64,000 nucleotides of DNA from Paracoccaceae bacterium (GTDB lineage Bacteria > Pseudomonadota > Alphaproteobacteria > Rhodobacterales > Rhodobacteraceae): the NCBI GenBank assembly GCA_006226775.1, contig SBGD01000102.1, positions 1-64,000 on the forward strand, written 5' to 3'. Each line of letters starts with the position of its first letter. Positions within the stretch are counted from its first letter, which is position 1. The notes beneath the pieces are model-generated. The model had not been told where the DNA came from. It did no database searches and saw only the letters and a list, made by a program, of their open reading frames with translations. Of this stretch, positions 49,186 through 64,000 are shown in pieces. The position numbers and the translations under genes were made by a program.

Positions 49186-50040
49186 ATGCATATCGCGCCG
49201 CATGACAACCAGAACAAACCCATCGTGGACGTGGACCACGACCTTGTACCGCTGAATTACTTCAATATCGTTACCCTGAAAAAGGGCGAGACATTCGACT
49301 ATGCCGTGCCCGGCTACGAGACCTGCGTCGTGCCCGCCACCGGCACCGTTGACGTGGATGTCGAGGGCGCGGGCTTTGCCAAGCTGGGCAACCGCGGCGT
49401 GGATGTCTGGGATGGCGAGCCCGAGGGGGTCTATGTGCCCTCCGGTGCGAAAACCCGGCTGACCTGCATCAGCGAGACCGCGGAGGTCTTCATCGCCGGC
49501 GCGAAATACGACAAGGTGCTCGAGCCTTTCGAGGTGCGCGAAGCCGAGCTGGACCTGGTGCAATACGGCTCGGACGACACCAAGACCCACCGCAAGATCA
49601 AGCACATCCTCGGCGCCGCCCAGCACGACAAGGTGGGCCGGTTGCTGGTCAGCGAGCTTTTCACCGTGGGGGCAGGGGGCTGGTCGGGCTTTCCGAGCCA
49701 CAAGCACGACACCGACCGCTGGGAAGACGGCGAGATGATCGAATCGCGCCACGACGAGACCTACAACTTCCGCTTCCGGCCCAACAAGGGCTCGGGCCTG
49801 CAGATGCTGCAACGCGAAGACAACGCGCCGGGCGACGCCTATCACATCATGGACCGCTCGACGATCCTGATCGACAAGGGCTATCACCCCTGCTGCGCCC
49901 TGCCGGGCTACGAGATGTATTATTTCACCATCCTCGGCGGGCTCTCGCAGCGCTCGCTGAAACAGTATTTCCAGCCGACCCATGCCGAGCAATTGCACAC
50001 CATTCCCGGCATCATGGACATGGTGGCCAAGTTCAAATGA
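49186..50040 (+). CDS. iolB: 5-deoxy-glucuronate isomerase
   Basis: A 284-residue bicupin of the IolB family. It isomerises 5-deoxy-glucuronate to 5-dehydro-2-deoxygluconate, the substrate of IolC. The central SGFPSHKHDTDRW and ESRHDETYNFRFRP (about 165-200) supply metal-binding histidines, and GYHPCCALPGYEMYYFTILGG is the conserved C-terminal stretch. AAAGGA precedes the ATG, and the gene overlaps iolJ by four bases. Confidence 0.94.
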   Translation: MHIAPHDNQNKPIVDVDHDLVPLNYFNIVTLKKGETFDYAVPGYETCVVPATGTVDVDVEGAGFAKLGNRGVDVWDGEPEGVYVPSGAKTRLTCISETAEVFIAGAKYDKVLEPFEVREAELDLVQYGSDDTKTHRKIKHILGAAQHDKVGRLLVSELFTVGAGGWSGFPSHKHDTDRWEDGEMIESRHDETYNFRFRPNKGSGLQMLQREDNAPGDAYHIMDRSTILIDKGYHPCCALPGYEMYYFTILGGLSQRSLKQYFQPTHAEQLHTIPGIMDMVAKFK

Positions 50041-50876
50041 CCCTGGTGACGCTGAAGGACGTCCTGCAACCGGCGCTGAACGGCGGCTATGCGGTGGCCG
50101 GGCTGGTAACGCTGGGCTGGGAGGACATGCGCGCCTTCGTGGCCGCAGCCGAGGCCGAGAATTGCCCGGTGATCCTGCAGGCCGGGCCGGGGTGCCGCGC
50201 GCATACGCCGCTGCCGGTGCTGGGGGCGATGTTCCGGAGCTTGGCGATGGGGGCCTCGGTGCCGGTGGTGGCGCATCTCGATCATGGCTACACGGTCGAG
50301 GAGTGCCGGGAGGCGATCGACTGCGGGTTTTCTTCGGTGATGTTCGACGGCTCGCGCAAGCCCCTGGCGCAGAACATTGCCGAGACCGCGGCGATTGCCG
50401 AGATGGCCCATGCGGCGGGGGTGTCCTGCGAGGGCGAGATCGGCTTTGTCGGCTATTCCGGCGGTGAGACCTCCGCCGGGACCGACCCGGCAGAGGCGGC
50501 GCAGTTCGCCCGCGAAACCGGGGTGGATGCCATGGCGGTCTCGGTCGGCAACGTGCATCTGCAACAGGAAAGCGGCGCGGGGCTGGACGAGGCGCGCATC
50601 CGCGCCATCGAGGCCGTGACCGACGTGCCACTGGTGATCCACGGCGGATCGGGCGTGCCGCAGGCGCAGCGGACGCGGCTGGCGCGTGGGTCGGCGATCT
50701 GCAAGTTCAACATCGGCACCGAGTTGCGCATGGCCTTCGGAGCGGCGCTGCGCGCGGCGGTGACGCGCGATCCGGAGCGCTTCGACCGGGTGGAGATCCT
50801 GTCGGAGACCCATGATCCGATGGTCGCCGCCACCCGCCAGGTGTTGCGGGCGTTCAAGGCGGCACCGCCGGGGTGA
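50037..50876 (+). CDS. iolJ: Class II aldolase, IolJ type
   Basis: A 279-residue class II fructose-bisphosphate-aldolase-family enzyme. The catalytic Asp82 and zinc ligand His83 are in VVAHLDHGYTVEEC; FSSVMFDGS, GEIGFVGYSGGE and VIHGGSGVP carry the other metal and phosphate-binding residues. In the inositol pathway it splits 6-phospho-5-dehydro-2-deoxygluconate into dihydroxyacetone phosphate and malonate semialdehyde. It ends the operon. The malonate-semialdehyde dehydrogenase gene (iolA) and an inositol importer are not in this window. Confidence 0.92.
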   Translation: MTLVTLKDVLQPALNGGYAVAGLVTLGWEDMRAFVAAAEAENCPVILQAGPGCRAHTPLPVLGAMFRSLAMGASVPVVAHLDHGYTVEECREAIDCGFSSVMFDGSRKPLAQNIAETAAIAEMAHAAGVSCEGEIGFVGYSGGETSAGTDPAEAAQFARETGVDAMAVSVGNVHLQQESGAGLDEARIRAIEAVTDVPLVIHGGSGVPQAQRTRLARGSAICKFNIGTELRMAFGAALRAAVTRDPERFDRVEILSETHDPMVAATRQVLRAFKAAPPG

Positions 50877-50898
50877 GAGGTCGGGTCTGGCCTCTTGC

Positions 50899-51136
50899 AG
50901 TCATCCGATTGAGCCTTTCCGGCCCGGAATCAAGCCGAAGGCGCCGGGCCAGCGTCATGCCAAAGGCATGCCTCCGGCATGACCCGCCCCCCGGGCTGCC
51001 GCTCCGGTGACGTCAGCGCATCGCTTGGAGGTCATCCGGACCTGGCCGAGATAAACTGCGCAGAAGAACCGTGGCAGCGGCATCCCGCGGGCCGCCGCTG
51101 GCCCGGCTCAGGGCGTGCGTTTTCGCAAGGTCCGCC
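50899..51136 (+). repeat. Dispersed intergenic repeat, copy 3
   Basis: The longest copy, matching 42757-42950 on the same strand and 3931-4148 reversed. It shares outer flanks with copy 1 (GTCATCCGATTGAGCC at one end, GCAAGG-CCGC at the other) and the nested CATGCC/GGCATG palindrome with copy 2. It fills the space between iolJ and the convergent PhyH gene; no gene is seen there. Confidence 0.75.
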
Positions 51137-51158
51137 CCGGACTGTTGTTCACCGCCGA

Positions 51159-52346
51159 TCAATGCGACCGCTTGCGCCCGTCCTGCTCGGCGATGGCCTG
51201 CGTCAGTCGCGCCAGGTCCCAGCCCTCGGCCAGCGCCTGGCGCAGCACGTCCTGCTGGCTGGGCGGCGCCATGCCCGAGAGCGGCGAGTCGATGTCGAGG
51301 TTGGCGGGGAAGGGATAGCCCTCTGCCGTCGCCGCCACCACGTTGTCACCCTCGCGCGCCGAAAGCCTCCCCGCCGCCAGCAGCGCTTTCAGATCCTCAT
51401 AGGCGGCCAGGGTGATCCGGCTGCGGTCGACGATCTCGATCGAGCGGCCATAGGCCGAGCCGATCTGCATCAGGTTGGCGAAACGCTGGATGTCGGCGGT
51501 GGTATTGTCGCCCGCGGCATGAAAGGTCGCCGGGTTGAAGAACAGCATGTCGCCCTTGGCCAGCGGCAATTGCACGCAAGCCTCCTCGAAGAACGCGCGG
51601 AACTGCGGCAGCAGCACGGCGATATAGCCCGGCAGGTAGCTCTGCGAATAGGGCAGGAGCTTGGTCGGCCCGCTCGCCAGCGGCATGTCGCTATGGGCCA
51701 CGGCGCCTTGCAGGGTCAGCGCGGCCGAGAGCGCGTGTTGCGAGGCGGGATAGCCCTTGAGCGTCTCGACGTCCTGGAACCCCATGTGGTAATCGCGATG
51801 TGCCACCTGCGCCTTGCCGCCGGGGCGCACGACATTGGCCTGAAAGGTGATCTGGTAGCCCGAGCCCAGCCAGCTTTCGCTGACCCTGCGGGTCAATTCA
51901 TTGGCATTATAGCGCACATAGACCTCGGGCGCCTGCATGCAGAGCTTTTCATGCGCGTTCCACACCCGGCTGTTGGCGCCGGCGGCGGCGAAATGGTCGC
52001 CCTTGCCGGTGGAGCCGACCTCTTCCTCGCGGATGATCGCGTTCAACTGCTCGGTCACGGCATCCACCAAGGCCGGGTCGTCATAGCCCTTGCGGATCGC
52101 GATGATGCCGGGGCCCGACAGGAAGGCGCGGTTCCACTCGGCCATCACCAGGCGCGCCTGCGCCGGGTCGGCCATGGCGCGGCGCATGGCGTCGCCGTCG
52201 TAGAGCGGGATCTTGTTGGCGATCTCGCTGGCATGGGGGTAATCCGCGGCCAGGGTCTCTTGCGCCACATGGCGCTTGAAGGCCTCAAGGTCGCAGGCAC
52301 GGTCGTCAAGCCATACCGCGGGCTGGCCGGTCTGTTGGTCGAGCAT
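51159..52346 (-). CDS. Phytanoyl-CoA dioxygenase (PhyH) family protein
   Basis: A 395-residue Fe(II)/2-oxoglutarate dioxygenase of the PhyH family. The iron ligands are His183 and Asp185 (VAHRDYHMGF) and His276 (TFHAAGDN), with Arg288 (DIQRFANL) placed to bind 2-oxoglutarate. Bacterial members hydroxylate varied small molecules; the substrate is unknown. GAGGATG precedes the ATG. It is divergent from a LacI-family gene at 52441, with 94 bases between, so the pair probably forms a regulator-target unit distinct from the inositol operon it converges on. Confidence 0.88.
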   Translation of the reverse strand: MLDQQTGQPAVWLDDRACDLEAFKRHVAQETLAADYPHASEIANKIPLYDGDAMRRAMADPAQARLVMAEWNRAFLSGPGIIAIRKGYDDPALVDAVTEQLNAIIREEEVGSTGKGDHFAAAGANSRVWNAHEKLCMQAPEVYVRYNANELTRRVSESWLGSGYQITFQANVVRPGGKAQVAHRDYHMGFQDVETLKGYPASQHALSAALTLQGAVAHSDMPLASGPTKLLPYSQSYLPGYIAVLLPQFRAFFEEACVQLPLAKGDMLFFNPATFHAAGDNTTADIQRFANLMQIGSAYGRSIEIVDRSRITLAAYEDLKALLAAGRLSAREGDNVVAATAEGYPFPANLDIDSPLSGMAPPSQQDVLRQALAEGWDLARLTQAIAEQDGRKRSH

Positions 52347-52440
52347 CTCTCATCCTCGCGAATTGATGTGTTCGAGAGTCAGATTAGGCTCGACTCCGCG
52401 CCCGGTCGCCGGTCAAATCCATCAAAAAGACATCAGGCCC

Positions 52441-53472
52441 ATGGCACATCGCTTCTCGATCAAGGAAATCGCCCACCAGGCCGGGCTCAGCACCGCCACG
52501 GTCGACCGGGTGGTCCACAACCGCCCCGGCGTGCGCCGCCAGACGGTGAACCGCGTTCATGCCGCGATCCGCGAGCTGGAAGCCCAGGAGGCGCAGCTGG
52601 CGATGTCCGGGCGCAAGCTGATGATCGACCTGGTGGTCGAGGCGCCGCAGGCCTTCCTCGACGAACTGCAAGTGGCGCTGCGCCACGAGTTGCCGCTGAT
52701 CCAGACGGCGATCTTCCGCGCCCGCAGCGACCTGCGCGCGCGTTTTCCGATTGCGGCGATCGTCGCGGCGCTCGAGCGGGCGGCGCGGCTGAAAAGCGAC
52801 GGGGTGATCCTGATGGCGCCCGATGCGGCGGCGATCCGGGCGGTGGTGGCGCGGCTGGTGGCGCAGGGCATTCCGGTGGTGACGCTGGCCACCGACATGC
52901 CGGGGTCGGCGCGGACCGGCTATGCCGGGCTCGACAATCCGCTGACCGGGCAGACCGCCGCCTGGCTGATGCGCCAGTGGCTGGCCGACCCGGCGCCGCA
53001 CCTGGTCGTCACCCTGCGCAACGAGGCCTTTCGCGGCGAGGTCGAGCGCGAGGAGGGATTCCGCGCCGGGGTGGCGCGGCATTGGGCGGGGGCCGACCTG
53101 ACCCTGCTGGTGCAGGGCAAGCAGGGCGCGGATTTCGCCGCCCGCGTGGCCGAGGTGTCGCGCGCGCGGCCGCCTGCCGGGCTTTATTCCATCGGCGGCG
53201 GCAACCGCGCGCTGGTGCGGGCCTTCGGGCGGCTGGGGCTGCCGCGCCCGGTGATGATCGGCCATGACCTCGACCCGGAGAACCGGGCGCTGCTGGCGGA
53301 TGGCGCGCTGGAGGCGGTGCTCTATCACGAGTTGACCGACGACATCCGCCAGGCCTTGCAGGTGTTCCTGTCGGTGCACAGCCAGGGCGCGGTGCCGATG
53401 CCCAAGGACGGCACGCCGCTGCGGGTGATGCTGCCGCCGATGCTGGCCGGGTCGGGGCCGGGCGAGGGATGA
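52441..53472 (+). CDS. LacI family transcriptional regulator
   Basis: A 343-residue regulator with the LacI helix-turn-helix at 1-50 (FSIKEIAHQAGLSTATVDRVVHNRPGVRRQTVNRVHAAIREL) and a sugar-binding-type effector domain. The effector half contains KSDGVILMAPDAAAIRAVVARLVAQGIPVVTLATDMPGSARTGYAGLDN, as in regulators of ribose- or inositol-like importers. It is divergent from the PhyH gene and convergent with the PfkB kinase gene. It is only distantly like the other LacI protein here, so it likely reads a different operator; I could not define one in the 94-base gap. Confidence 0.9.
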   Translation: MAHRFSIKEIAHQAGLSTATVDRVVHNRPGVRRQTVNRVHAAIRELEAQEAQLAMSGRKLMIDLVVEAPQAFLDELQVALRHELPLIQTAIFRARSDLRARFPIAAIVAALERAARLKSDGVILMAPDAAAIRAVVARLVAQGIPVVTLATDMPGSARTGYAGLDNPLTGQTAAWLMRQWLADPAPHLVVTLRNEAFRGEVEREEGFRAGVARHWAGADLTLLVQGKQGADFAARVAEVSRARPPAGLYSIGGGNRALVRAFGRLGLPRPVMIGHDLDPENRALLADGALEAVLYHELTDDIRQALQVFLSVHSQGAVPMPKDGTPLRVMLPPMLAGSGPGEG

Positions 53473-53520: not shown

Positions 53521-54396
53521 TCAGGACTGCTGACCCAGTTCCGGCGCGCGGTGGAACCCGCCGCGTTGCGCGATGGCCTGCGCGCCCCGGGCGTTTCCGG
53601 CGCGCAGGCAGGCGCGCAGGTCGGCCCCGGAGAGCCAGGCGCTGAGGAACCCGGCGTTGAAGGCATCGCCCGCGCCGGTGGTGTCGACCACCGTGACCCG
53701 CTCGGCCGGGGCGTGGATCTCGCCCTGGTCGCTCAGCGCCGTCGCCCCCGCGGCGCCCTGCTTGATCGCGGTCAGCGGAAAGCGCGCGCGCGGCACGCCG
53801 ATTTCCTCGAGATGCCGCACCTCGGCCGCGTTGGGCAGGAAGACATCGACCTCGGCCAGCACCTCGGCGATCCCGGCGGCGGCCAGCCCGTCGTCCCAGC
53901 TGCAATCGAGCGAGAGCGTCGCCCCGGCGGCGCGCGCCAGCGCGATGATCTCGGGCCGCTCGATCAGCGTCGCCAACTCGCCGACATGCACATGCGCCAC
54001 CCCGAGCGCGGTGAGGTCGGCGACCTCGAGCCTGGGAAAGGCCGGGCCGCTGCGCCGGGTGACAAAGGCGCGGTCCTCGGCCCCGGCCAGCGCCACCGTC
54101 ACCTGCGGATCGCTGCCCGGCGCCAGCGTCCGGCAGAGCCGCAGGTCGATGCCGACCTGGCCCAGGTCGTCGGACAGAAGCGCGCCGAACGGCCCCGGCG
54201 GCAGCATCGCGGCGAGTGCGGAGCCATGGCCCAGCGCCGCCAGATGCGCCGCGGTGATGAAGGCGCCGCCGCCGGCATGAACGCCGAAGCCCCCGGCATA
54301 GACCTCGGTGCCCAGCGTCGGCATCCGCGGCAGATCGGTAAAGATCAGGTCGCAGTAAAGCCGCCCGACGCTGAGGATCACGGGGCGGCCCGTCAC
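53521..54396 (-). CDS. PfkB family carbohydrate kinase
   Basis: A 291-residue ribokinase-like kinase. N-terminal VGRLYCDLIFTDLPRMPTLGTEVYAGGFGVHAGGGAFITAAHLAALG is the sugar-binding region; DTTGAGDAFNAGFL (G241-x-G-D244) holds the catalytic aspartate. The start is GTG, overlapping the ATPase stop by four bases, so it is coupled to the importer genes. It is the last gene of the minus-strand operon and should phosphorylate the sugar moiety delivered by that importer, possibly after deacetylation by the PIG-L protein encoded nearby. Confidence 0.9.
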   Translation of the reverse strand: MTGRPVILSVGRLYCDLIFTDLPRMPTLGTEVYAGGFGVHAGGGAFITAAHLAALGHGSALAAMLPPGPFGALLSDDLGQVGIDLRLCRTLAPGSDPQVTVALAGAEDRAFVTRRSGPAFPRLEVADLTALGVAHVHVGELATLIERPEIIALARAAGATLSLDCSWDDGLAAAGIAEVLAEVDVFLPNAAEVRHLEEIGVPRARFPLTAIKQGAAGATALSDQGEIHAPAERVTVVDTTGAGDAFNAGFLSAWLSGADLRACLRAGNARGAQAIAQRGGFHRAPELGQQS

Positions 54397-55451
54397 CGCA
54401 GCGCCTCGCCGGTCGCGGCATCGAAGACGTGGATATTCTCCGGCGCGGCGCCGAGGTGGACCACCTCGCCGACCTCGGGCGGGGTGCGCCCGTCGGCCTT
54501 GGCGATCACGTCGCCATTGGCGGTCTCGACATAGATCAGCGTCTCGTGGCCCAGCGGTTCGCGCAAGTTTACCGCGCCCTCGATCACCGCGGTGTCATGC
54601 CCGGTGTGCAGATCCTCGGGGCGGATGCCGAGGATGATGTCGCGCCCCTCGGGCAGCGCGCGGCCCAGATCCAGCGTCCCGCCGGTCGAGAGCGCCACCC
54701 CGCCGCCGGGCCGGGCCACGCCGGGGATCATGTTCATCGCCGGCGCGCCGATGAACCGCGCGACGAAGGTATTGGCGGGCTGGTGATAGACCTCTGCGGG
54801 CGTGCCGACCTGCTGGATATGGCCGTCCTTCATGATGACGATGCGGTCGGCCATGGTCATCGCTTCCACCTGGTCATGGGTGACAAAGACGATGGTCGAG
54901 CCGACCCGCTGGTGCAGCTTCTTGATCTCGAGCCGCATCTGGGTGCGCAATTGCGCATCGAGGTTCGACAGGGGCTCGTCGAACAGGAAGACCGCCGGAT
55001 CGCGCACCATGGCGCGGCCGATGGCGACGCGCTGGCGTTGCCCGCCCGACAGCTGGCTGGGCTTGCGGTCGAGGTAGGCGGTCATGCCGAGCAGCTCCGC
55101 CACGCTCTCGATCCGCTTGTGTTTCTCGGCCTTCGGCGCCTTGGAACTGCGCAGCCCGAAGCCGATGTTCTTGCGCACGGTCATATGCGGATAGATGGCG
55201 TAGTTCTGGAACACCATGGCGATGTCGCGGTCCTTGGGTTCGAGGTTGTTGACCACCCGCCCGGCGATCTCGATGGTGCCGGAGGTGACCTCTTCCAGCC
55301 CGGCGATCAGCCGCAGGGTGGTGGATTTGCCGCAGCCCGAGGGCCCGACGAAAACGACGAATTCACCGTCCTCGACCGCAAGGCTGATGCTGTGCAGCAC
55401 CTCGGTCTTGTCGTAGCTCTTCACGAGGTCGCGCAGGACGAGATTGGCCAA
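54393..55451 (-). CDS. ABC transporter ATP-binding protein (UgpC type)
   Basis: A 352-residue ATPase with Walker A GPSGCGKST at 36-44, signature LSGGQRQRVAIGRA near 134-147, Walker B VFLFDEPLSNLDA, H-loop VTHDQVEAM and a C-terminal TOBE domain (ILGIRPEDLHTG). The start codon is TTG at 55451, set by the conserved N-terminus and AGGAG nine bases upstream. It energises the permeases at 56936-58713; the lyase gene is inserted between them. Confidence 0.93.
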   Translation of the reverse strand: MANLVLRDLVKSYDKTEVLHSISLAVEDGEFVVFVGPSGCGKSTTLRLIAGLEEVTSGTIEIAGRVVNNLEPKDRDIAMVFQNYAIYPHMTVRKNIGFGLRSSKAPKAEKHKRIESVAELLGMTAYLDRKPSQLSGGQRQRVAIGRAMVRDPAVFLFDEPLSNLDAQLRTQMRLEIKKLHQRVGSTIVFVTHDQVEAMTMADRIVIMKDGHIQQVGTPAEVYHQPANTFVARFIGAPAMNMIPGVARPGGGVALSTGGTLDLGRALPEGRDIILGIRPEDLHTGHDTAVIEGAVNLREPLGHETLIYVETANGDVIAKADGRTPPEVGEVVHLGAAPENIHVFDAATGEALR

Positions 55452-55454
55452 GGC

Positions 55455-56939
55455 TCAGGTCTCCTGAAGCGTGGCGAAGGCGGCGGCGCGGGTGGCCGCG
55501 GCCTCGGCAATGCGGGTGGTCCGGCGGGCCTGCCGGGTGGCAAGATCGTCGGCGGTGATGCGGTAGAGCGCAAAGGTGGAAGCCAGCGCCTCGGGCGCCG
55601 GGCCGCCGGGGCGGGTGCGGCAGGCGACGAAGGTCTCGGGCGCGGTGGCCTTGGCGAAGGCGGGTTCGGTCAGCGTGGTCGCGCGCCCGGTCTCGGCGCG
55701 GAAGGCCTCGGCAAAGGCGGCGTGGCCCTGCCCCAGCGCCCGCCCCTCGCGGATCACCGCGGCGGCGGTGCGCGCGGCGATCTCATGCGCCTGGCGGAAG
55801 CTGAGGCCCTCGTCGCGCACCAGCGTGTCGGCCAGTTCGGTGATGGTGATGCAGGCGGCCTCGGTGGTCCGGCGCACCCGCTCGGCATTGATCGAGCACG
55901 CCGGCAGCAAGGCCGTGAGCAGCGCCAGCACCCGCCCGCCGCTGTCGAAGGCGGCATAGCCGGCCTGCTGCACCTCGCCCTCGCTGTCGTTCATGTCGGT
56001 GAACGGCGTGTTGTGCATGGTGTTGACGATCGTGTCACAGCGCCCGACGGTGACGCTGGACAGGTGCCGCAGGTGCTCGATCGGCACCGGGTTGCGCTTC
56101 TGCGGCATGATCGAGGAGACCTGGACGAGGCTGTTGGGCACGTAGAGCTGGCCGACCTCGAAGGCGGCCCAGAATTGCAGGTCCTGGATCAGACGGCCGA
56201 GATGCAGGAACACCAGTTTCACCGCGGAATAAAGCCCGGTGACGTAATCCACCGCCGCGATGCAGCCATAGGAGTTGAGCAAAGGCCCCTCGAACCCCAG
56301 CAGATCGGCCACAAGCCCCCGGTCGATGGGAAAGCCCGAGGTGGTGATCGCCGCCGCGCCCATCGGGCAATGGCCCAGCGCCTCGATGGCGGCATCCAGC
56401 CGCTCGGCATCACGCAACAGCACCTCGATCACCGCGCCGAGGTAATGCCCGAAGGTCGAGGGCTGCGCCGGCTGGCCATGGGTATAGGCGACGATCAGGG
56501 TGGTCTTCTCGGCCTCGGCCTTGGCGATCAGCGCGCGGGCGAGATCGAGGATCTGGCCCTGCATCTGCTCGGCCCTCTCGCGCAGCGCCATCTTGAACAG
56601 CGTATGATCCATGTCATTGCGCGAGCGCGCGGTATGCAGCGCGCCGCCGAGGTCTCCGAGCCGGGCCCGCAATTCGGCCTCGACGAGAAAGAAGTAATCC
56701 TCGTGCTCGCCGGTATAGGTCAGGGCCTCGATATCGACCTCGGCGTCGATCTCGCGCAGGGCGGTCGCGATCCGCCCCGCATCCCGCGGCCCCAGGATGC
56801 CGGTCTCTGCCAGCATCACCAGATGTGCGCGGTTGATCGCACCCATGTGCGCCGCGTAGTGCCGCTTGACCCCCTCGAAGAGCGGCGCCAGCACGGTGTT
56901 GCGGTAGGTCGGATCGGGGAATTTGGAGGTATCGCTCAT
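55455..56939 (-). CDS. Argininosuccinate lyase-like enzyme in a sugar importer operon
   Basis: A 494-residue member of the fumarase/aspartase superfamily, closest in motifs to argininosuccinate lyase: LHTARSRNDMD (101-111, canonical HTGRSRNDQ), YTHGQPAQPSTFGHYL (152-167) and the signature SSIMPQKRNP (275-284) with the catalytic serine. Deviations (Gly to Ala and Gln to Met in the first motif) and the operon argue against arginine synthesis. Family members eliminate fumarate from N-succinyl compounds; EDDS lyase is an example outside arginine metabolism. I infer that it cleaves an N-linked dicarboxylate part of the imported compound. It overlaps the permease gene by four bases and abuts the ATPase gene. 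Confidence 0.85.
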   Translation of the reverse strand: MSDTSKFPDPTYRNTVLAPLFEGVKRHYAAHMGAINRAHLVMLAETGILGPRDAGRIATALREIDAEVDIEALTYTGEHEDYFFLVEAELRARLGDLGGALHTARSRNDMDHTLFKMALRERAEQMQGQILDLARALIAKAEAEKTTLIVAYTHGQPAQPSTFGHYLGAVIEVLLRDAERLDAAIEALGHCPMGAAAITTSGFPIDRGLVADLLGFEGPLLNSYGCIAAVDYVTGLYSAVKLVFLHLGRLIQDLQFWAAFEVGQLYVPNSLVQVSSIMPQKRNPVPIEHLRHLSSVTVGRCDTIVNTMHNTPFTDMNDSEGEVQQAGYAAFDSGGRVLALLTALLPACSINAERVRRTTEAACITITELADTLVRDEGLSFRQAHEIAARTAAAVIREGRALGQGHAAFAEAFRAETGRATTLTEPAFAKATAPETFVACRTRPGGPAPEALASTFALYRITADDLATRQARRTTRIAEAAATRAAAFATLQET

Positions 56940-57820
56940 CCCTTCAACCCCGCCATGACAACCCCGCGGATGATGAACCGCTGGAAAATGAGAAAGACGA
57001 TCAGCGTCGGAATGGTCGAGATCGCCGCCCCTGTCATGATCAACTCCCAGGCCACGTCGGCCTCGTCGCCGAAGGAGGACAGGCCCACCGGCAATGTATA
57101 CATCTCGACCGAATTGGTGACGATCAGCGGCCAGATGAAGGCGGTCCAGTTGCCGAGAAAGACGAAGATCGCGAGCGCCGCCAGCGCGGGCCGCACCAGC
57201 GGCATGGCGACGGTCCACCAGATCTGCAACTCGTTGAGCCCGTCGATCCGCGCGGCCTCGATGAAATCGTCCGGCACGGTCTCGAAGAACTGTTTCATCA
57301 GGAAAGTGCCGAAGGCGGTCATCAACCCCGGAAACATGATGCCCCAGTAGGTGTCGAGCCAACCGAATTGCTGGCTCATCAGGTACCAGGGGATCACCAG
57401 CATCTCGGTCGGGATCATCAGCGTCGAGAGGATGGCGATGAAGACGATGTAGCGGCCCGGAAAGCGGAACTTGCAGAGCGTGTAGCCCACCAGGCTGTCG
57501 AAGAGCACGCTGGAAATCGTGGTGATCACCGCGATCACGATGGAATTGAGAAACCACCAGTAGAAGCGCCCGTCTTCCAGCACATAGGTGTAGTTCTCGA
57601 GGGTCGGCTCTTCGGGAATGAAGTTGAGGTTGTAGACCTCATGCGGCCATTTCAGCGAGGTCGAGATCATGAAGGCAATCGGCATCACCATCAGCACGCC
57701 GCCCGCGAAAAGCAGCAGGAAGCGCAGGATCTGCCCCATGTTGCGCGGTGGCTTGCCGGGACCGTCGCGCAAAAGCGCCTCGGAGCTGGGCTTGATCGCG
57801 ATTTCGTCGGTGACGGCCAT
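56936..57820 (-). CDS. ABC sugar transporter permease (MalG-like)
   Basis: A 294-residue inner-membrane protein with six membrane segments after a cytosolic N-terminus of about 35 residues. The EAA loop is DDFIEAARIDGLNELQIWWTVAMPLVRPALAA near 190-222. The C-terminal FQRFIIRGVVMAGLKG is typical of MalG/UgpE subunits. It overlaps its neighbours on both sides. Confidence 0.93.
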   Translation of the reverse strand: MAVTDEIAIKPSSEALLRDGPGKPPRNMGQILRFLLLFAGGVLMVMPIAFMISTSLKWPHEVYNLNFIPEEPTLENYTYVLEDGRFYWWFLNSIVIAVITTISSVLFDSLVGYTLCKFRFPGRYIVFIAILSTLMIPTEMLVIPWYLMSQQFGWLDTYWGIMFPGLMTAFGTFLMKQFFETVPDDFIEAARIDGLNELQIWWTVAMPLVRPALAALAIFVFLGNWTAFIWPLIVTNSVEMYTLPVGLSSFGDEADVAWELIMTGAAISTIPTLIVFLIFQRFIIRGVVMAGLKG

Positions 57821-58713
57821 CAGCGGTCCCTCAGGATGCGCAATTGCAAGAGGCTCACCACCAGCAGCACCAGAAACAGCACCACGGTCTGCGCCGCCGC
57901 ATAGCCCATGTCGAAGGAGTTGAAGGCGGTCTGGTAGATCATCAGCACCAAGGGCTTGGTCGAGTTCAGCGGCCCGCCGGGGTTCTGCGTCGTCATGTTG
58001 TAGACATGGTCGAAGATGCGCAAAAAGCCGATGGAGGAAAACACCACGATGAAGACGATGGTGGGCTTGAGAAGCGGCAGGGTGATCTCCCAGAGCACGG
58101 TCCAGGTCGAGACACCGTCGATCCGCGCCGCCTCGTAATAGCTTTTCGGGATCGCGCGCAGCCCGGCCATGAAGATGATGATCTGAAAGCCCAACCCCGC
58201 CCAGACCGCCGGCGCCAGGATCGCGGGCAAGGCATTGGTGGTGGAGTTCAGGAAGTTGATCTGCGGGATGCCCAGCGAGGCGAGGAAGTTGTTGAAAAGC
58301 CCGATCGGCACCGGCTGGTAGAACCAGCGCCAGACCCAGGCCATGGCCACGGCAGAGGTCATGAAAGGCAGGAAATAGAGCATCCGCAGGAAGCCATGCA
58401 GGAACCGCGTCTTGTCGAGGTGATAGGCCACCACGAAGGAGATCACGAGGCTGACCGGCGTGCCCAGCAGCAGGTAGACGAAGGTATTGCGGAAGACCTT
58501 CCAGAATACCGGATCGGCGAAGAGTTTCTGGTAATTGTCGAGGCCCGTCCAGGTGCGCGCGCCCAGCAGGTTCCAGTCCTGGAAGCTGATCAATATGGCA
58601 TTGCCGGTGGGATAGAAGCGGATCACGCCGTAAAACAGCACCGGGATGGCCAGAAAGGCCCAGGCCCAGGCGATCTGTTTCTGGCGGATGGTGAGATCGC
58701 GGTAGAGCTTCAT
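57820..58713 (-). CDS. ABC sugar transporter permease (MalF-like)
   Basis: A 297-residue inner-membrane protein with six membrane segments and the EAA loop KSYYEAARIDGVSTWTVLWEITLPLLKPTI near 191-220. It begins MKLYRDLTIRQKQIAWAWAFLAIP with GGGGGGACC upstream. It pairs with the permease at 56936. Confidence 0.93.
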   Translation of the reverse strand: MKLYRDLTIRQKQIAWAWAFLAIPVLFYGVIRFYPTGNAILISFQDWNLLGARTWTGLDNYQKLFADPVFWKVFRNTFVYLLLGTPVSLVISFVVAYHLDKTRFLHGFLRMLYFLPFMTSAVAMAWVWRWFYQPVPIGLFNNFLASLGIPQINFLNSTTNALPAILAPAVWAGLGFQIIIFMAGLRAIPKSYYEAARIDGVSTWTVLWEITLPLLKPTIVFIVVFSSIGFLRIFDHVYNMTTQNPGGPLNSTKPLVLMIYQTAFNSFDMGYAAAQTVVLFLVLLVVSLLQLRILRDR

Positions 58714-58734
58714 CGGTCCCCCCGGCGCTGAATT

Positions 58735-58758
58735 GCCCCGGCCACATCGGGCCGGGGC
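58735..58758 (-). terminator. Intercistronic stem-loop after the binding-protein gene
   Basis: GCCCCGGCC (58735-58743) pairs perfectly with GGCCGGGGC (58750-58758) over a six-base loop, eight bases after the binding-protein stop on the minus strand. It resembles the hairpins at 7015-7045 and 19221-19244. Confidence 0.55.
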
Positions 58759-58766
58759 GCGTCGCC

Positions 58767-60026
58767 TTACTTGGTGTAGTATGCGTCGAGCAGCTTCTGC
58801 TCGGCCTCGGCGGCCTGGGCGAGGCTGTCGGCGGCGGACATGCCTTGCAGCTGCATCCGCTCGACCATCTCCACCATCAGCTGACGCTGGCCGCTTTCAT
58901 CGGCGAACTTGGTGGTATGGGCATATTCCAGCCCGCGGATGAACGGGCCGAAGACCGGATCGTTGGCGTTCTTCTCGGTCATGCCGACCGAGGGTTTCGC
59001 GGGCAGCTCGCCCACCACGTCGAGCCAGATCTGCATCGCCTCGTCCGAGGTCACGTAGTCCATGAACTTCACCGCGGCGTCGTATTTCTCGCCCTCGGCT
59101 TTCGTCGTGATCGCGTTCACCCAGTAGGAGGAGTAATTCGACCGCTCGCCCTCGGCATTGGCCGGAAGCTCGGTCACCCCCCATTTCAGCCCGCGGATAT
59201 CGGCCAGCGCGCCGATGCGGAACGACCCGTCGATATGCATCCCGGCGCGGCCCGCCTTGAAGGCGGCCTGCGGCTCGTCCATGAAGCCGATGGCGGTGAC
59301 CGGCTCGTCGCCCATGAACATGTTGGTGTAGAATTCCAGCGCTTTCAGCCCGGCCTCGGTATTGTAGTTCACGGTCTTGTAGTCGTCGAGGTAAGGCTCG
59401 CCGCCCATCTGCCGCACCAGCCCCTCGCGCCACCAATGGTGATCCTGCGCGGTCATGCCCGCGGTCATGCCGACCTGGGTGATATTGCCCGCGCCGTCGC
59501 GCTTGGTCATGGCGGCGGCGGCGCTCATCAGCTCGTCCAGCGTGGTCGGGGGCGCGACCCCGGCCTCTTCCATGAGGCGTTCGTTGTAGAACAGCGCCAG
59601 AGAGCGGACGGCCGTGGGCAGCGCCCAGTATTGGTCGCCCTCCTTCATCGCCTGGACCATCGGGAAGAACTCTTCGTCGATCCGGTCGGCGGGAAAGACA
59701 TCCGCCGGCAGCGGCTGGATCAGCTCGGCCTCGACGTAGTCGTTGAGCCAGCCGTAGAACAATTGCACCACGTCCGGCCCCTCGCCCGCCGGAATCGCCG
59801 CGGCGACCTTGGTGCGGTAATCGGCATAGGGGAAATGCGTCATCTTGACGGTGATGTCGGGGTTGGCGGCCTCGAACCCCTCGATCAGCTGCTCCATCGC
59901 GGTGACGCGGGCGTCGAAGAAATACTGCCAGTATTCGATCTCGACCGCATTCGCCACCGATCCCGCAAGCGCGGCAACACTGGTGGCCGACGCAAGGGCC
60001 AGCGCCCTCAGTCTCTTGATTTTCAT
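58767..60026 (-). CDS. ABC transporter sugar-binding protein
   Basis: A 419-residue family 1 binding protein. The signal peptide is MKIKRLRALALASATSVAALAGSVANA (cleavage near 27). Mature features: EIEYWQYFFDARVTAMEQLIEGFEAANPDITVKMTHFPYADYRTKVAAAIPAGEGPDVVQLFYGWLNDYVEAELIQPLP, LALFYNERLMEEAGVAPPTTLDELM and the C-terminal FMDYVTSDEAMQIW. GGAGG precedes the ATG. It is the first gene of the importer - lyase - ATPase - kinase operon and is divergent from the ROK regulator. The ligand is unknown; neighbours suggest an acylated amino sugar or sugar-dicarboxylate conjugate. Confidence 0.92.
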   Translation of the reverse strand: MKIKRLRALALASATSVAALAGSVANAVEIEYWQYFFDARVTAMEQLIEGFEAANPDITVKMTHFPYADYRTKVAAAIPAGEGPDVVQLFYGWLNDYVEAELIQPLPADVFPADRIDEEFFPMVQAMKEGDQYWALPTAVRSLALFYNERLMEEAGVAPPTTLDELMSAAAAMTKRDGAGNITQVGMTAGMTAQDHHWWREGLVRQMGGEPYLDDYKTVNYNTEAGLKALEFYTNMFMGDEPVTAIGFMDEPQAAFKAGRAGMHIDGSFRIGALADIRGLKWGVTELPANAEGERSNYSSYWVNAITTKAEGEKYDAAVKFMDYVTSDEAMQIWLDVVGELPAKPSVGMTEKNANDPVFGPFIRGLEYAHTTKFADESGQRQLMVEMVERMQLQGMSAADSLAQAAEAEQKLLDAYYTK

Positions 60027-60098
60027 GGTTTTCCTCCCCGGTTGGTTCCCCGGCCCGCGCGGCTGCGATGCGGCGGGTCCGCGTGTGACTGCAATTAA

Positions 60099-60113
60099 CT
60101 CAACTGTATTGAG
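60099..60113. promoter_or_regulatory. Palindromic site between the importer operon and the ROK regulator
   Basis: CTCAA-CTGTA-TTGAG, flanked by TTAA on both sides, is an inverted repeat in the divergent space 60027-60152, in markedly A/T-richer DNA. It is the best candidate operator for the ROK-family protein. Confidence 0.55.
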
Positions 60114-60152
60114 CTTTAATGTCAAGTGCGCTACCTCCGAAGGATGATGTCG

Positions 60153-61325
60153 ATGACCGAAACCTTTGTCGGCGCCAATGCCCTGCGCGCGCGCAGCCAC
60201 AACCGCCAGGTGGTGCTGGGCCATATCCGCAGGGCCGGGCAGACCGGGCGGGCCGAGATTGCCCGCGCCTCGGGGCTGTCGATCCAGGCGGTGTCGAACA
60301 TCATTGCCGACCTGCTCACCGACGGGCTGATCGTCGAACAGGGCCGCCGCGCCTCGGCGCGCGGCCAGCCGCCGGTGCAATATGCGTTGCACCCCTCGGG
60401 CGGTTTCGCGCTGGGGGTCGAGGTGCGGCCCGATGCGGTCTTTGCCGCGGTGCTCGATCTCTGCGGCACGCGGCTTGGCGCCGAGCGCGCACCGCTGCCC
60501 GCCACCGACCGCGCCAGCATCACCCGCGCGGTGGTCGGGCTTTGCGCGCGGGTTCTCGCGGCGTCGAAGACGCCGAAGGCCCGCGTGCTGGGCGCCGGCG
60601 TGGTGATGCCCGGGCCCTTCGGGCGCACCGGCATCCTCGGCCACGGGTCGGACCTCGACAGCTGGGACGACACCGCGCCCGACGCCTGGTTTTCCCGCGC
60701 GCTCGACCTGCCGGTGGTGGTCGAGAACGACGCCAATGCCGCCGCCATGGCCGAACGCATCGCCGGGGTGGCGCAGGGGCTGGACACCTATGCCTTTCTC
60801 TACTTCGGCTCGGGGCTCGGCCTCGGCTCGGTCCACAAGGGGCGGCTGATCGCGGGTGCCCAGGGCAATGCCGGCGAGATCGGCCATATCCCGGTGCCCG
60901 CCGCAGGCCGCACCGTGGCGCTGGAAAGCCTGGTCAGCCGCCTGTCGGTGCAGCGCGCGCTGCAGGCCGCGGGCATCGAGGTCTCCAGCGGGGACGAGAT
61001 CACCCGGCTTTACGAGGCCCGCAACCCGGTGCTGCTGGCCTGGCTCGATGCCGCGACCGAGCCCTTGTCGGCGGCGGTGACCATTGTCGAGAACCTGCTT
61101 GATCCGCAATGCGTGATCCTCGGCGGCGCCATGCCCGATGCGCTCCTCGATCACCTGCTGGGTTCGGTGCGCCTCTCGCCGCGTTCGGTGGCCGAGCGCG
61201 CGGGGCGGAGCCATCCGCGCCTGCTGCGCGGCGCCTCGGGGCGGATGACGGCGACGCTGGGCGCCGCGGCGCTGGTGCTCAACCAGGCCTTCACCCCGCA
61301 GATCGCGGTCCAGAGCCAGGAGTGA
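60153..61325 (+). CDS. ROK family transcriptional regulator
   Basis: A 390-residue NagC/Mlc-type protein. The N-terminal winged helix is NRQVVLGHIRRAGQTGRAEIARASGLSIQAVSNIIADLLTDGLIVEQG (about 17-64), followed by the ROK sugar-binding fold with LGAGVVMPGPFG, VVENDANAAAMAE and GAQGNAGEIGHIPVP. The ROK zinc-cysteine motif usual in Mlc is not evident. The ATG at 60153 has GAAGG nine bases upstream; in-frame ATGs at 60144 and 60147 are nearer the site. It is divergent from the importer operon and two bases upstream of the PIG-L gene, so both are probably under its control. ROK repressors generally sense sugars or amino-sugar phosphates. Confidence 0.9.
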   Translation: MTETFVGANALRARSHNRQVVLGHIRRAGQTGRAEIARASGLSIQAVSNIIADLLTDGLIVEQGRRASARGQPPVQYALHPSGGFALGVEVRPDAVFAAVLDLCGTRLGAERAPLPATDRASITRAVVGLCARVLAASKTPKARVLGAGVVMPGPFGRTGILGHGSDLDSWDDTAPDAWFSRALDLPVVVENDANAAAMAERIAGVAQGLDTYAFLYFGSGLGLGSVHKGRLIAGAQGNAGEIGHIPVPAAGRTVALESLVSRLSVQRALQAAGIEVSSGDEITRLYEARNPVLLAWLDAATEPLSAAVTIVENLLDPQCVILGGAMPDALLDHLLGSVRLSPRSVAERAGRSHPRLLRGASGRMTATLGAAALVLNQAFTPQIAVQSQE

Positions 61326-61327
61326 CC

Positions 61328-63691
61328 ATGCCGACACCCGAACAGTCCCGCATCATGGAGGACCGCGCCCGCCCGCGGCTGCTGGAGCTTTGGTGGGCGC
61401 TGCGCCCGCTGACCTCGGTGATCCGCTTCATGCAGTCCGGCGCGCATCCCGATGACGAGCATTCCGGCATGCTGGCGGCGCTGGGGTTCCGCGACGGGCT
61501 GAACCTCTCCTACGCCTGTTCGACCCGTGGCGAGGGCGGCCAGAACGACATCGGCACCGAGGCGGGCGCCGATCTGGGCGCGCTGCGCACGCGCGAGATG
61601 GAGCGGGCCTGCGACATTCTGGGGATGCGCATGTACTGGCATTCCGAGAGCCCGGACGATCCGATCCATGATTTCGGTTTCTCAAAGAGCGGGGTCGAGA
61701 CGCTGGGCCATTGGGGGCATCAGCGCACCCTGGCGCGCTTTGTCGAGATCGTGCGCACCGAACGGCCCGATATCCTCTGCCCCACCTTCCTCGACGTGCC
61801 GGGCCAGCACGGCCATCACCGCGCCATGACCCAGGCCGCGCATGAGGTCATGGCGGCCGCCGCCGATCCCGCGTATCCCTCGAACCTGCCGCCCTGGCAG
61901 GTGGCCAAGCTCTACCTGCCCGCCATCTCCGGCGCGGGGCAGGCCTATGACGACGATCTGCCGCCGCCACCCGCGACGCTGAGGGTCGAGGGCGCGGGGC
62001 GCGATCCGGTCAGCGGCTGGACCTGGGACCGCATCGGCCAGCAATCGCGCGCCTTTCATCGCACGCAAGGCATGGGGCGCTGGGTCGGGTCGGGCGAGTC
62101 CGAGGGCTGGCCGCTGCACCTGGCCGAAAGCCATGTGCCGGGGCCGGATGTGGCGCTTTCCTCCGGGCTGCCGGCAACGCTGGGCGATCTGGCGGACCTG
62201 CCCGAGGCGGTGCCGGTTGCCGATGATCTGCGCGCGGCGCAACGCGGTATCGACGAAGCGCTCGCCGCCTTTCCCGCCGACCCCCGCGTTGCAAGGGCGG
62301 CACTGCAGGCGCTGGCGGCAGTGCGCAAGGCCCGGGCGGAATGTCCCGAGGCGGCGCGCGATCAACTGCTGCACCGGCTCGACGCCAAGGCGGTGCAGCT
62401 CGGACATGTCATCCGCCTCGCCCTGGGCATCGAGGCCTGCGCCCGGACAGAAGAGACCTTCCTGACCCCCGGCCAGTCCACCGCTCTCATCGTCGAGACC
62501 CACACCGGCGATGCCGAGGCCATCCACGTGGATTTCGACCTGCCCGAGGGCTGGCGGGTGACCGGCGACAGCCTCGCCATTGCCGCCGACGCAGGCGCCA
62601 GCGATCCTTACCGCAGCACATACGACCCCGCGGCACCCGAAGCCCCGGCGCTCTGCCTGACCTTCGAGGCCCATGGCACAAGCGTCGAGACCCGCCTGCC
62701 CTTCGATCCCGAGCCGGTGATCCTGCCCGCCCGCAGCGCGCAGGTGACGCCGCAAAGGGCGCTGATCAACCTCGCGGGCCAGCGGCGGAGCCTCGACATC
62801 GCCATCCGCGATATCCATCCCGAAGGTGCGCGGGCCGACCTCGCCCCGCCCCCGGGCTGGCGGATCGCGCGGGAAGCGGCAAGCGCCCGGCTTACCCTGC
62901 CCGATACTGCCGAGGCGGGGCTTCATGTCCTGCCGCTGCGCCTTGACGGGCACCCGGCGTCCAGCCTCACCCGCATCACCCATCCCCATGTCGCGCCCAC
63001 CGCGCGGGCGCATCCGGCGGAGGTGCAGGTGCGGGTGCTCGATGTGACGGTGCCGCATGTCCGTGTCGGCTATGTCGGCGCAGGCAACGACCGGGTCGAT
63101 CACTGGCTCTCGGCCCTTGGCGCCGATGTCACCGCGCTCTCCGATGCCGACCTGCAGGACGAAGCCGCGCTGGCCGAATACGGCGCCATCGTCATCGGCA
63201 TCTTCGCCATGCGCTTCCGCCCCGGGCTGACCGAGGCCATGCCCCGCCTGCACCGCTGGACCGAGGCGGGCGGCACGCTGGTCACGCTCTATCACCGGCC
63301 CTGGGACAATTGGGATGCCGCGCGCATCCCGCCGCGGCGGCTGGAGATCGGCCAGCCCTCGCTGCGCTGGCGCGTCACCGACGAGACCGCCGAGGTACGC
63401 CACTTGGTCGAACATCCGATCCTGCAAACCCCCAACCGGATCACGCCCGAGGACTGGACGGGCTGGGTCAAGGAACGCGGGCTCTATTTCGCCAAAAGCT
63501 GGGACGAGAGCTACACCCCGCTGCTGGAAATGGCCGACCCGGGCGAAGCGCCCCTGCAAGGCGCGCTGCTGGTGGCAGAGATCGGCGAGGGGCGGCATGT
63601 GCATTGCGCGCTGATCCTGCATCACCAGATGGAGCACCTGGTGCCCGGCGCCTTTCGCCTGATGGCCAACCTGATCGCGCCGCGGGGGTGA
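61328..63691 (+). CDS. PIG-L family deacetylase with long C-terminal extension
   Basis: A 787-residue protein. The N-terminal domain (to about 260) is a PIG-L/LmbE zinc deacetylase: SGAHPDDEHSG (His40, Asp42, Asp43) and the third-ligand region PGQHGHHRAM (161-166). PIG-L enzymes remove N-acetyl groups from GlcNAc-containing compounds. The middle (about 330-600) looks like beta-sandwich modules. The last about 190 residues (VRVGYVGAGNDRVDHWLSALGADVTALSDADL, YGAIVIGIFAMRFRPGL, GGTLVTLYHRPWDNW, GRHVHCALILHHQMEHLVPGAFRLMANLI) resemble a ThuA/glutamine-amidotransferase-like fold. There is no signal peptide, so it is cytosolic. It is coupled to the ROK gene and ends six bases from the convergent cyclo-ligase gene. 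Confidence 0.85.
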   Translation: MPTPEQSRIMEDRARPRLLELWWALRPLTSVIRFMQSGAHPDDEHSGMLAALGFRDGLNLSYACSTRGEGGQNDIGTEAGADLGALRTREMERACDILGMRMYWHSESPDDPIHDFGFSKSGVETLGHWGHQRTLARFVEIVRTERPDILCPTFLDVPGQHGHHRAMTQAAHEVMAAAADPAYPSNLPPWQVAKLYLPAISGAGQAYDDDLPPPPATLRVEGAGRDPVSGWTWDRIGQQSRAFHRTQGMGRWVGSGESEGWPLHLAESHVPGPDVALSSGLPATLGDLADLPEAVPVADDLRAAQRGIDEALAAFPADPRVARAALQALAAVRKARAECPEAARDQLLHRLDAKAVQLGHVIRLALGIEACARTEETFLTPGQSTALIVETHTGDAEAIHVDFDLPEGWRVTGDSLAIAADAGASDPYRSTYDPAAPEAPALCLTFEAHGTSVETRLPFDPEPVILPARSAQVTPQRALINLAGQRRSLDIAIRDIHPEGARADLAPPPGWRIAREAASARLTLPDTAEAGLHVLPLRLDGHPASSLTRITHPHVAPTARAHPAEVQVRVLDVTVPHVRVGYVGAGNDRVDHWLSALGADVTALSDADLQDEAALAEYGAIVIGIFAMRFRPGLTEAMPRLHRWTEAGGTLVTLYHRPWDNWDAARIPPRRLEIGQPSLRWRVTDETAEVRHLVEHPILQTPNRITPEDWTGWVKERGLYFAKSWDESYTPLLEMADPGEAPLQGALLVAEIGEGRHVHCALILHHQMEHLVPGAFRLMANLIAPRG

Positions 63692-63697
63692 CGCCGC

Positions 63698-64000
63698 TCA
63701 GGTGGCGGGGCCCTCCTCGGTCAGGATCACGTCGAGCGGGATGTCATGCGGCTGGGGATAGATCGTCGCCAGCCGGGCCGCGGCAAAGCCCACCCCGATG
63801 GCAAAGGGCCGCGGTTTCAGCGCCGCCAGCGTGCGGTCGAAATAGCCGCCGCCATAGCCCAGCCGATAGCCGTCGGCGCACCAGCCGACCAGCGGCGCAA
63901 GGGTGATCTCGGGGGTGACCTCCGGCGCCTCCGGGGGCGGCACGGGAATGTTCCAGTCGCCGCGCACCATTCTGGTCTCGGGCGTCCAGCGGCGGAAAGT
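63698..64000 (-). CDS. 5-formyltetrahydrofolate cyclo-ligase, C-terminal part
   Basis: The last 100 residues are present; the start lies beyond the right edge. TFRRWTPETRMVRGDWNIPVPPPEA, APLVGWCADGYRLGYGGGYFDRTLAAL (the conserved G-x-G-GGYYDR-like loop) and AIGVGFAAARLATIYPQPHDIPLDVILTEEG are the typical C-terminal half of this enzyme, which converts 5-formyl-THF to 5,10-methenyl-THF using ATP. It is a housekeeping gene convergent with the PIG-L gene and not evidently part of the catabolic modules. Confidence 0.92.
   Translation of the reverse strand, partial: TFRRWTPETRMVRGDWNIPVPPPEAPEVTPEITLAPLVGWCADGYRLGYGGGYFDRTLAALKPRPFAIGVGFAAARLATIYPQPHDIPLDVILTEEGPAT

Follow-up and report, generated by a model that had tools for sequence, protein, structure and literature searches.

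Here we describe a putative catabolic gene cassette of a Paracoccaceae bacterium at positions 53521–63691 of the window (by the window we mean the whole stretch of DNA analyzed, i.e. positions 1–64,000 of contig SBGD01000102.1). Open reading frames and profile scans place there a sugar-type ATP-binding cassette (ABC) importer with its solute-binding protein (SBP), an ArgH-like fumarate lyase, a PfkB-family kinase, a ROK-family regulator and a PIG-L fusion protein (Table 1). The initial annotation had named all of these parts as an importer operon; the gene set stands, but the single operon does not, as the genes form two packed, divergent transcription units (SBP–permease–permease–lyase–ATPase–PfkB on the minus strand, ROK regulator–PIG-L on the plus strand). 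Within each unit, adjacent genes overlap by 1–4 bases or are separated by 2–3 bases (the exception is the junction of permease 1 and the SBP gene, 53 bases), a tight spacing as in co-transcribed genes. The cassette is a new catabolic variant made from known parts.

Table 1. Genes and sequence features of the cassette (window coordinates; aa, amino acids)
Feature	Position	Strand	Evidence or proposed role
PfkB/ribokinase-family sugar kinase, 291 aa	53521..54396	-	PF00294 7.4e-32; DTTGAGD motif; proposed glucosamine kinase
UgpC/MalK-type ABC importer ATPase, 352 aa	54393..55451	-	NF008653 488.5 bits, cut-off 432
ArgH-like fumarate lyase, 494 aa	55455..56939	-	PF00206 (Lyase_1) 2.5e-39; PF14698 (ASL_C2) 2.3e-10
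Sugar-type ABC permease 2, 294 aa	56936..57820	-	PF00528 2.8e-19
Sugar-type ABC permease 1, 297 aa	57820..58713	-	PF00528 3.2e-17
Solute-binding protein (SBP), 419 aa	58767..60026	-	PF13416 (SBP_bac_8) 2.3e-36
Dyad AGCTCAA-N5-TTGAGTTA	60096..60115	between both units	proposed operator of the ROK regulator
ROK-family transcriptional regulator, 399 aa	60126..61325	+	PF00480 1.3e-30; winged helix-turn-helix PF13412 1.8e-5
PIG-L metallo-deacetylase/amidase-like fusion protein, 787 aa	61328..63691	+	PF02585 1e-16

Conservation and variants of the cassette

In a survey of the family (149 genomes from 148 genera; the lyase was called at ≥47% identity, the next best match being at 35%), the lyase is found in 28 genomes. 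The PIG-L gene (E-value up to 1e-20) is found in 27, all of them among the 28 lyase carriers and always on the same contig as the lyase, and in none of the other 121; G026, which has the lyase without PIG-L, encodes a ROK protein downstream instead. A survey of the class (385 genomes; E-values up to 1e-90 for the lyase and 1e-50 for PIG-L) found the lyase in 12 genomes and PIG-L in 10, all within these 12 and none among the other 373; the two genes are on one contig in nine of the 10 and on two contigs in one (G183). The co-occurrence across relatives on which the initial annotation had made its reading depend is thus observed, for 27 of 28 family carriers and 10 of 12 class carriers, in counts that are not independent events as the genomes share ancestry. 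The distribution is patchy, as G099, a genome of the window's own genus, has neither lyase nor PIG-L.

Gene order was compared in related loci (numbered L), the best 80 of 497 matches from named genomes and hence the nearest relatives. PIG-L, SBP and both permeases are encoded in all 72 related loci with enough upstream sequence, and the ROK regulator in 71 of them; the ATPase is encoded in every one of the 73 loci whose downstream sequence reaches far enough, and PfkB in 62 of these. With neighbors conserved to this extent, the gene arrangement is more than chance.

Some genes recur as additions or replacements. A gene for an EamA/DMT transporter lies near PIG-L in 54 of 72 related loci (e.g. 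L048:2379-3245) and is missing from the window; such a transporter could export a released product. Its spot in most relatives is occupied in the window by a minus-strand frame (63698–64000) that by eye resembles 5-formyltetrahydrofolate cyclo-ligase. A VOC/glyoxalase-fold protein is encoded between permease 2 and the lyase in 12 of 80 loci (e.g. L049:9549-10004), and its gene overlaps the lyase start in several. ROK kinases with a DLGGT motif and a zinc motif take the position of PfkB in L037 and L153. Another type of ROK protein, found in L035, L127, L155, L156 and L157, keeps DxGGT and is missing the zinc motif; L155 has importer, PIG-L, lyase, ROK protein and NagB all together. We did not adopt the Paroceanicella-type ROK protein as a kinase: it keeps DxGGT, the zinc motif is missing and there is an N-terminal extension, so that its role is uncertain.

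More distant cassettes differ in their PIG-L content. Two Deinococcus plasmids carry genes for a ROK regulator, the lyase, a large PIG-L protein, an SBP, two permeases, a small PIG-L protein and a sugar kinase (PfkB); three other Deinococcus loci have lyase, SBP and permeases with no PIG-L alongside, and importer and lyase likewise occur with no PIG-L alongside in Shinella, Bosea and Terrarubrum. What these forms have in common is importer plus lyase; in the clade of the window, PIG-L and the kinase almost always accompany them. Nonomuraea (L131) has a related arrangement that runs from 4369 to beyond 8977 and encodes PfkB, SBP, two permeases and a large PIG-L protein of the Deinococcus type, with no lyase in the stretch. 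Loci L147-L149, from three genomes of a single genus, have lyase and PIG-L back to back, and the fetched stretches contain no sugar importer, which could lie outside them; next to the pair is a gene for a family-5 binding protein that scores best with the NCBIfam model of GsiB, a component of glutathione import (114 bits, cut-off 594), and L147 encodes a further family-5 binding protein, nearest to NikA.

Sulfur-related genes were seen at a few loci. Genes for a SufS-like enzyme (143 bits, cut-off 475) and an Lrp regulator lie beside the cassette, at either end, in three of 125 loci (L034:1088-4030, L078:337-2324 and L146:2-1585), and in one of the 125, L034, the pair is followed by a Blh-like dioxygenase gene (within the L034 interval given; 561 bits, cut-off 625, for that part of the model only). 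It is possible that these genes serve the disposal of cysteine sulfur; their presence is suggestive only. Two other sets of neighbors were set aside: a glutathione S-transferase gene follows the ATPase gene in eight loci, which share parts of one wider neighborhood and so probably represent one lineage, and mandelate racemase, fuconate, glycine-cleavage and aromatic genes near some loci were not recurrent in clustering. In the window itself, the adjoining region (49186–53472) is another sugar/polyol locus, with genes for a KduI/IolB-family protein, a class II aldolase, a PhyH-type dioxygenase and a LacI regulator. The second contig of G183 (L154:7075-14639) has a PIG-L gene near genes for a glucokinase, a pyridoxamine-pyruvate-transaminase-like enzyme and a family-5 binding protein, and a partial NagB-II-like gene.

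The lyase, the PIG-L protein and their partners

The initial annotation would have been undone by a lyase that both complemented an argH mutant and was the genome's only argH. It is not the sole ArgH-like gene: another, on contig C73, shares 34% identity with it, and its product has the ArgH hallmarks (WGGRF at the start, KDMQEDK inside), which rules out that possibility. All 28 lyase-bearing genomes of the family likewise show two matches; among the matches listed, 22 second matches are at 31–34% identity, the ArgH range. We compared motifs in an alignment with 25 displayed rows, including four ArgH rows, the window lyase and 11 other importer-linked rows. The catalytic motifs HTARSRND, YTHGQPAQP and SSIMPQKRNP are retained in the window lyase; the importer-linked rows have HT[AG]RSRND, YTHGQPAQP and SSIMPQKRNP, with the variants RTALSRND, Y[TS]HHQPAQP and SSVMPQKRNP in Deinococcus. 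All four ArgH rows have the WGGRF segment and the KDxQEDK motif, which we take to serve the arginine side of ArgH, and none of the 12 importer-linked rows, the window lyase among them, has either; importer-linked lyases have HNTPFTDMND or close variants in place of the ArgH motif (HNxPFGDIND in Deinococcus).

The same division is seen in a 50-row lyase tree (midpoint root): 32 alphaproteobacterial importer-linked lyases form a clade (100/99) that excludes ArgH, whose four rows group on their own (100/100) on a branch of 2.14. Five Deinococcus rows join the 32 lyases at 100/97, a join that the program flags as possibly false; the long rows of the tree are L040, L043, L045, L046 and L144. The predicted structure of the lyase (mean pLDDT 90.5) is nearest to delta-crystallin/argininosuccinate lyase (ASL; Z 39.3) and EDDS lyase (Z 38.8, 28% identity), which are tied. 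NF005218 (PRK06705), the best NCBIfam match of the lyase, was discarded as a functional clue (306 bits, cut-off 883); in 96 class genomes no protein exceeds its cut-off, and among the matches listed the top ones are mostly of the same clade, followed by paralogues and ArgH. Other ASL-like genes were met in passing. The Streptomyces homologue (L045:1-11431, on a plasmid) was put aside for its different context, among non-ribosomal peptide synthetase genes with an ATP-grasp enzyme and a pyridoxal phosphate enzyme, probably a natural-product pathway; a further ASL-like pair in other Alphaproteobacteria (L139:9391-10872, L140:3168-4673) has a KNTAFGDVND / KNTSFSDVND motif.

The PIG-L protein has the PF02585 domain together with the AHPDDE and HxHH metal motifs of its family, and all 31 aligned PIG-L sequences, that of the window included, have AHPDDE and GQHGHH without variation. 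According to its model (pLDDT 91.2), it is a fusion: the PIG-L domain (∼30–284) is followed by a helical and strand-rich middle part and a ThuA/GATase1-like C-terminus (576–787), which matches STM3548 with Z 17.2. The modeled PIG-L domain is nearest to MshB (Z 21.2, rmsd 3.3, 234 aligned), with BshB (Z 18.3, rmsd 2.9, 198 aligned) and diacetylchitobiose deacetylase (Z 18.4) also close; these three enzymes hydrolyze glucosamine amides. The curated NCBIfam cut-offs are missed by the window protein (Mca, 27.0 bits against 277; MshB, 26.4 against 224; BshB2, 22.4 against 195).

Glucosamine-6-phosphate deaminases are found beside the lyase in relatives. NagB-II homologues are encoded in 16 of 80 related loci, in 11 of them directly downstream on the same strand. 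By coordinates, eight of the 28 lyase-bearing family genomes have a NagB- or NagB-II-like gene 1.3–3.1 kb from the lyase gene (NagB-like, under the cut-off, in G107 and G136; NagB-II-like in G015, G020, G040, G082, G084 and G112), for which a rough estimate of the chance expectation is far below one. In G006 (L146:12281-13060), a NagB-like gene lies right after PIG-L, 7.1 kb from the lyase, and has an in-frame TAA about one third in, the result of decay of recent date or of an assembly error. The Paroceanicella cassette encodes a NagB over its cut-off. The Roseomonas cassette encodes an SIS protein whose best family is NagB-II (313 bits, cut-off 430) and whose close solved relatives include glucosamine-6-phosphate deaminase (3.6e-64); MurQ (21 bits) and FrlB (27 bits) score far lower and were rejected for it. 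Of the 28 lyase-bearing family genomes, 26 have at least one candidate for NagB or NagB-II, and 21 have NagA (over its cut-off in 18); in the window genome, nagB and nagA are together on contig C63, apart from the cassette.

The importer is of the CUT1 sugar type in profile scans, with a UgpC-type ATPase, two BPD permeases and an SBP of family 1/8. The models nearest to permease 2 are UgpE/GlcU/MalG and those nearest to permease 1 are UgpA/GlcT, all under their cut-offs. The N-terminus of the SBP is signal-peptide-like by eye, and its nearest solved relatives in sequence include acarbose/maltose- and other sugar-binding proteins; searches of SBP and PfkB against solved structures gave no clue to the ligand.

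The ROK regulator has an N-terminal winged helix-turn-helix and a ROK domain in which, by eye, the DxGGT phosphate motif is absent; it misses the NagC equivalog cut-off (76 bits versus 650). The dyad in front of its gene looks like a local operator of the cassette, common to both units. Across 74 related loci its core occurs 79 times in 1,522,445 bases, and 47 of these occurrences are within the gaps, which make up 7,711 bases; with up to two mismatches, a match falls inside the lyase/PIG-L gap in 14 of 20 cassette-bearing genomes. Allowing up to three mismatches, the window has two matches versus 0.19 expected by shuffling; with up to two mismatches, the 4.58-Mb genome has one match, as it does for a reversed control pattern.

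A proposed pathway and its alternatives

The deaminases in relatives' cassettes and the PIG-L fold point to glucosamine (GlcN) as the sugar, and the family of the lyase points to a C4-dicarboxylate as its partner. To our knowledge, the only natural compounds that join the two are those of the bacillithiol family. ArgH removes the N-linked succinyl group of argininosuccinate as fumarate by beta-elimination, and fumarase offers a precedent for C-O bond splitting within the lyase superfamily. Polaribacter sp. MED152 is, we assume, of marine origin. This strain makes N-methyl-bacillithiol (excerpts of PMC6282198). In bacillithiol, cysteine is amide-bonded to glucosamine, which is linked to malate, and Deinococcus is named as a bacillithiol-making genus (both in excerpts of PMC6336425); BshB-type enzymes deacetylate N-acetylglucosamine (GlcNAc)-malate, and one acts as a conjugate amidase (excerpts of PMC4360819).

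Our preferred reading, to which we give about an even chance, is that the cassette serves specifically to import and break down a glucosamine conjugate bearing a C4-dicarboxylate, and the best candidates for this compound are those of the bacillithiol family (GlcNAc-malate, or Cys-GlcN-malate and its conjugates). The SBP–permease–ATPase importer would take the compound in; the PIG-L protein, apparently cytoplasmic, would hydrolyze the N-acyl group (acetyl or cysteinyl) off glucosamine; the ArgH-like lyase, a proposed GlcN(Ac)-dicarboxylate lyase, would beta-eliminate the malyl group from the sugar to give fumarate and free glucosamine; the PfkB kinase would form glucosamine-6-phosphate; and NagB, encoded elsewhere in the window genome, would convert this to fructose-6-phosphate and ammonia. 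The ROK regulator may sense a sugar and control both units through the shared operator. We infer all of this, i.e. substrate, reactions, the order of the PIG-L and lyase steps, and regulation, from genes and models. The N-acylated amino sugar linked to a dicarboxylate that the initial annotation had suggested as substrate gains qualified support from the cassette deaminases, the retained catalytic motifs of lyase and PIG-L, and the MshB/BshB-like PIG-L fold. The preferred reading also draws on the cassettes with two PIG-L genes in Deinococcus, on the GsiB-like binding proteins of L147-L149 and on the few SufS-like/Lrp pairs.

The substrate should come from outside, as BshA exceeds its cut-off in none of the 28 lyase-bearing genomes (25 have weaker matches, the best at 115 versus 273.7 bits; three of 14 controls exceed it), which rules out bacillithiol made by the host. 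A more specific version, that marine and soil bacteria scavenge bacillithiol-family thiols of other bacteria (bacillithiol, N-methyl-bacillithiol, S-conjugates and GlcNAc-malate) and that the ArgH-like member is a glucosaminyl-malate lyase, is tentative, and we rather doubt it; if true, the lyase reaction would be new to the fumarase/ASL superfamily and the cassette would be the first known route for breaking down the glucosaminyl-malate core.

A number of observations weigh against the preferred reading. For the lyase, that an enzyme of ArgH type could take off a malyl group bound through oxygen is a proposal only, drawn by analogy, and TIGR00838, the NCBI argH model, scores the window lyase at 292 bits, over the cut-off of 279.5, which fits its public annotation as argH. 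For PIG-L, the hydratase GalB has the same fold and matches the PIG-L domain with Z 18.6, so that the fold alone does not fix the reaction or prove amide hydrolysis. PIG-L was not found in G026, G373 and G378, which have the lyase, nor is it beside the lyase in Paroceanicella, Shinella, Roseomonas, Bosea, Terrarubrum and the three Deinococcus loci, so PIG-L is not always needed. These cassettes, together with the rarity of sulfur genes beside the cassette (the SufS-like ones are far from their cut-off and the Blh-like one is below it), speak against a role in bacillithiol breakdown alone, and the usual importer is of the sugar type. NagB-II-like genes (≥170 bits) are common anyway (19 of 28 lyase-bearing versus 14 of 28 hand-picked other genomes), so that the argument is one of position and not of presence; the curated NagB-II cut-off is passed in none of the 56 genomes, and neither NagB nor NagB-II was found in G012 and G142 (84% complete). 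PfkB and SBP are below every NCBIfam equivalog cut-off. The dyad is not enriched genome-wide (67 matches versus 98 for the control over 20 genomes), so that position alone supports the operator, and its stricter form is present in 45 of 74 gaps and missing in 29.

The best of the alternatives, which we consider unlikely, is an N-linked dicarboxylate: the substrate would be an aspartate–sugar adduct (a Heyns product, e.g. 2-aspartyl-2-deoxyglucose, or an Amadori product), from which the lyase would release fumarate and an amino sugar as ArgH does. This chemistry is closest to that of ArgH and EDDS lyase and fits the lyase best, and cassettes without PIG-L need no N-acyl group; PIG-L, however, with the lyase in nearly all family carriers, is left unexplained, and the deaminase-type proteins examined beside the clade are NagB and NagB-II, not FrlB-like. 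A distant lyase paralogue (35%) in Cereibacter adjoins an FrlB-like deglycase (80 bits, cut-off 430) and amino-acid-type ABC genes, which suggests an Amadori-type role there.

We regard as less probable still that the lyase acts on another N-succinyl amine (an EDDS-like aminopolycarboxylate or an opine-like product) with glucosamine elsewhere in the molecule, PIG-L and the kinase processing that part. EDDS lyase is among the nearest folds and accepts many amines (excerpts of PMC9486952), and the family-5 binding proteins beside lyase and PIG-L in three genomes of one genus would suit such a compound; no recurrent enzyme, however, is obviously fit for the remainder, the recurrent additions being the EamA transporter, NagB-II and the VOC protein. 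Finally, an ordinary GlcNAc-glycoside import operon with a redundant ArgH paralogue still making arginine would agree with the argH score and the retained catalytic motifs, but is very improbable given the second match in all 28 carriers (ArgH-range in the 22 listed), the replaced WGGRF and KDxQEDK, the separate, long-branched ArgH clade and the tie of the lyase to the importer and mostly to PIG-L.

If the preferred reading is true, the cassette is a breakdown route for the GlcN-malate core, and its lyase brings to the ArgH superfamily a sugar–dicarboxylate reaction; the recurring 'argininosuccinate lyase' annotation in public records would be corrected and the cassette could be used as a marker of thiol recycling. 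Searches of the open-licence literature found no described breakdown of this core, and, in line with the initial annotation, they yielded no pathway with this gene set. Even with another amino-sugar conjugate as substrate, this is a widely conserved and testable pathway, for which we found no experimental report in the same searches. The cassette is carried by many marine and some soil bacteria, which seem to use the conjugate as food.

Comparison with known systems

The lyase belongs with ArgH, EDDS lyase and the aspartase/fumarase superfamily in its fold and in the motifs HTARSRND, YTHxQxAQP and SSIMPQKxNP. Unlike ArgH, it has no WGGRF start, has HNTPFTDMND for KDxQEDK and is on a separate branch, and it is encoded in an amino-sugar import cassette of a genome with another ArgH-type gene.

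With BshB, MshB, Mca and Bca, the window protein shares the PIG-L fold and metal motif, and the small PIG-L protein encoded in the Deinococcus cassette has an MshB match that covers most of it (147 bits, cut-off 224). Unlike these enzymes, the window protein (787 aa) has a ThuA/GATase1-like domain fused at its C-terminus, is tied to import and stays far under the curated cut-offs.

The fructoselysine and fructose-asparagine (Amadori) operons are similar in using a PfkB kinase and SIS-domain enzymes for sugar–amino-acid conjugates, but the SIS protein of the cassette is NagB-II-like (313 bits, versus 27 for FrlB), and a pair of ASL and FrlB-like enzymes is seen only with the distant Cereibacter-type paralogue. 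This pair occurs in L129 and on a Cereibacter plasmid (L043:53-10553), where amino-acid-type ABC genes and a DAO oxidoreductase gene accompany it in a possible Amadori-aspartate operon.

The nag and chitobiose operons, with the archaeal diacetylchitobiose deacetylase route, resemble the cassette in import, deacetylation, kinase, NagB/NagB-II and a ROK-type regulator. The cassette differs from nag operons in its extra fumarate lyase and in having PIG-L in place of NagA: by the coordinates listed, NagA is encoded within 4 kb of the lyase solely in G020.

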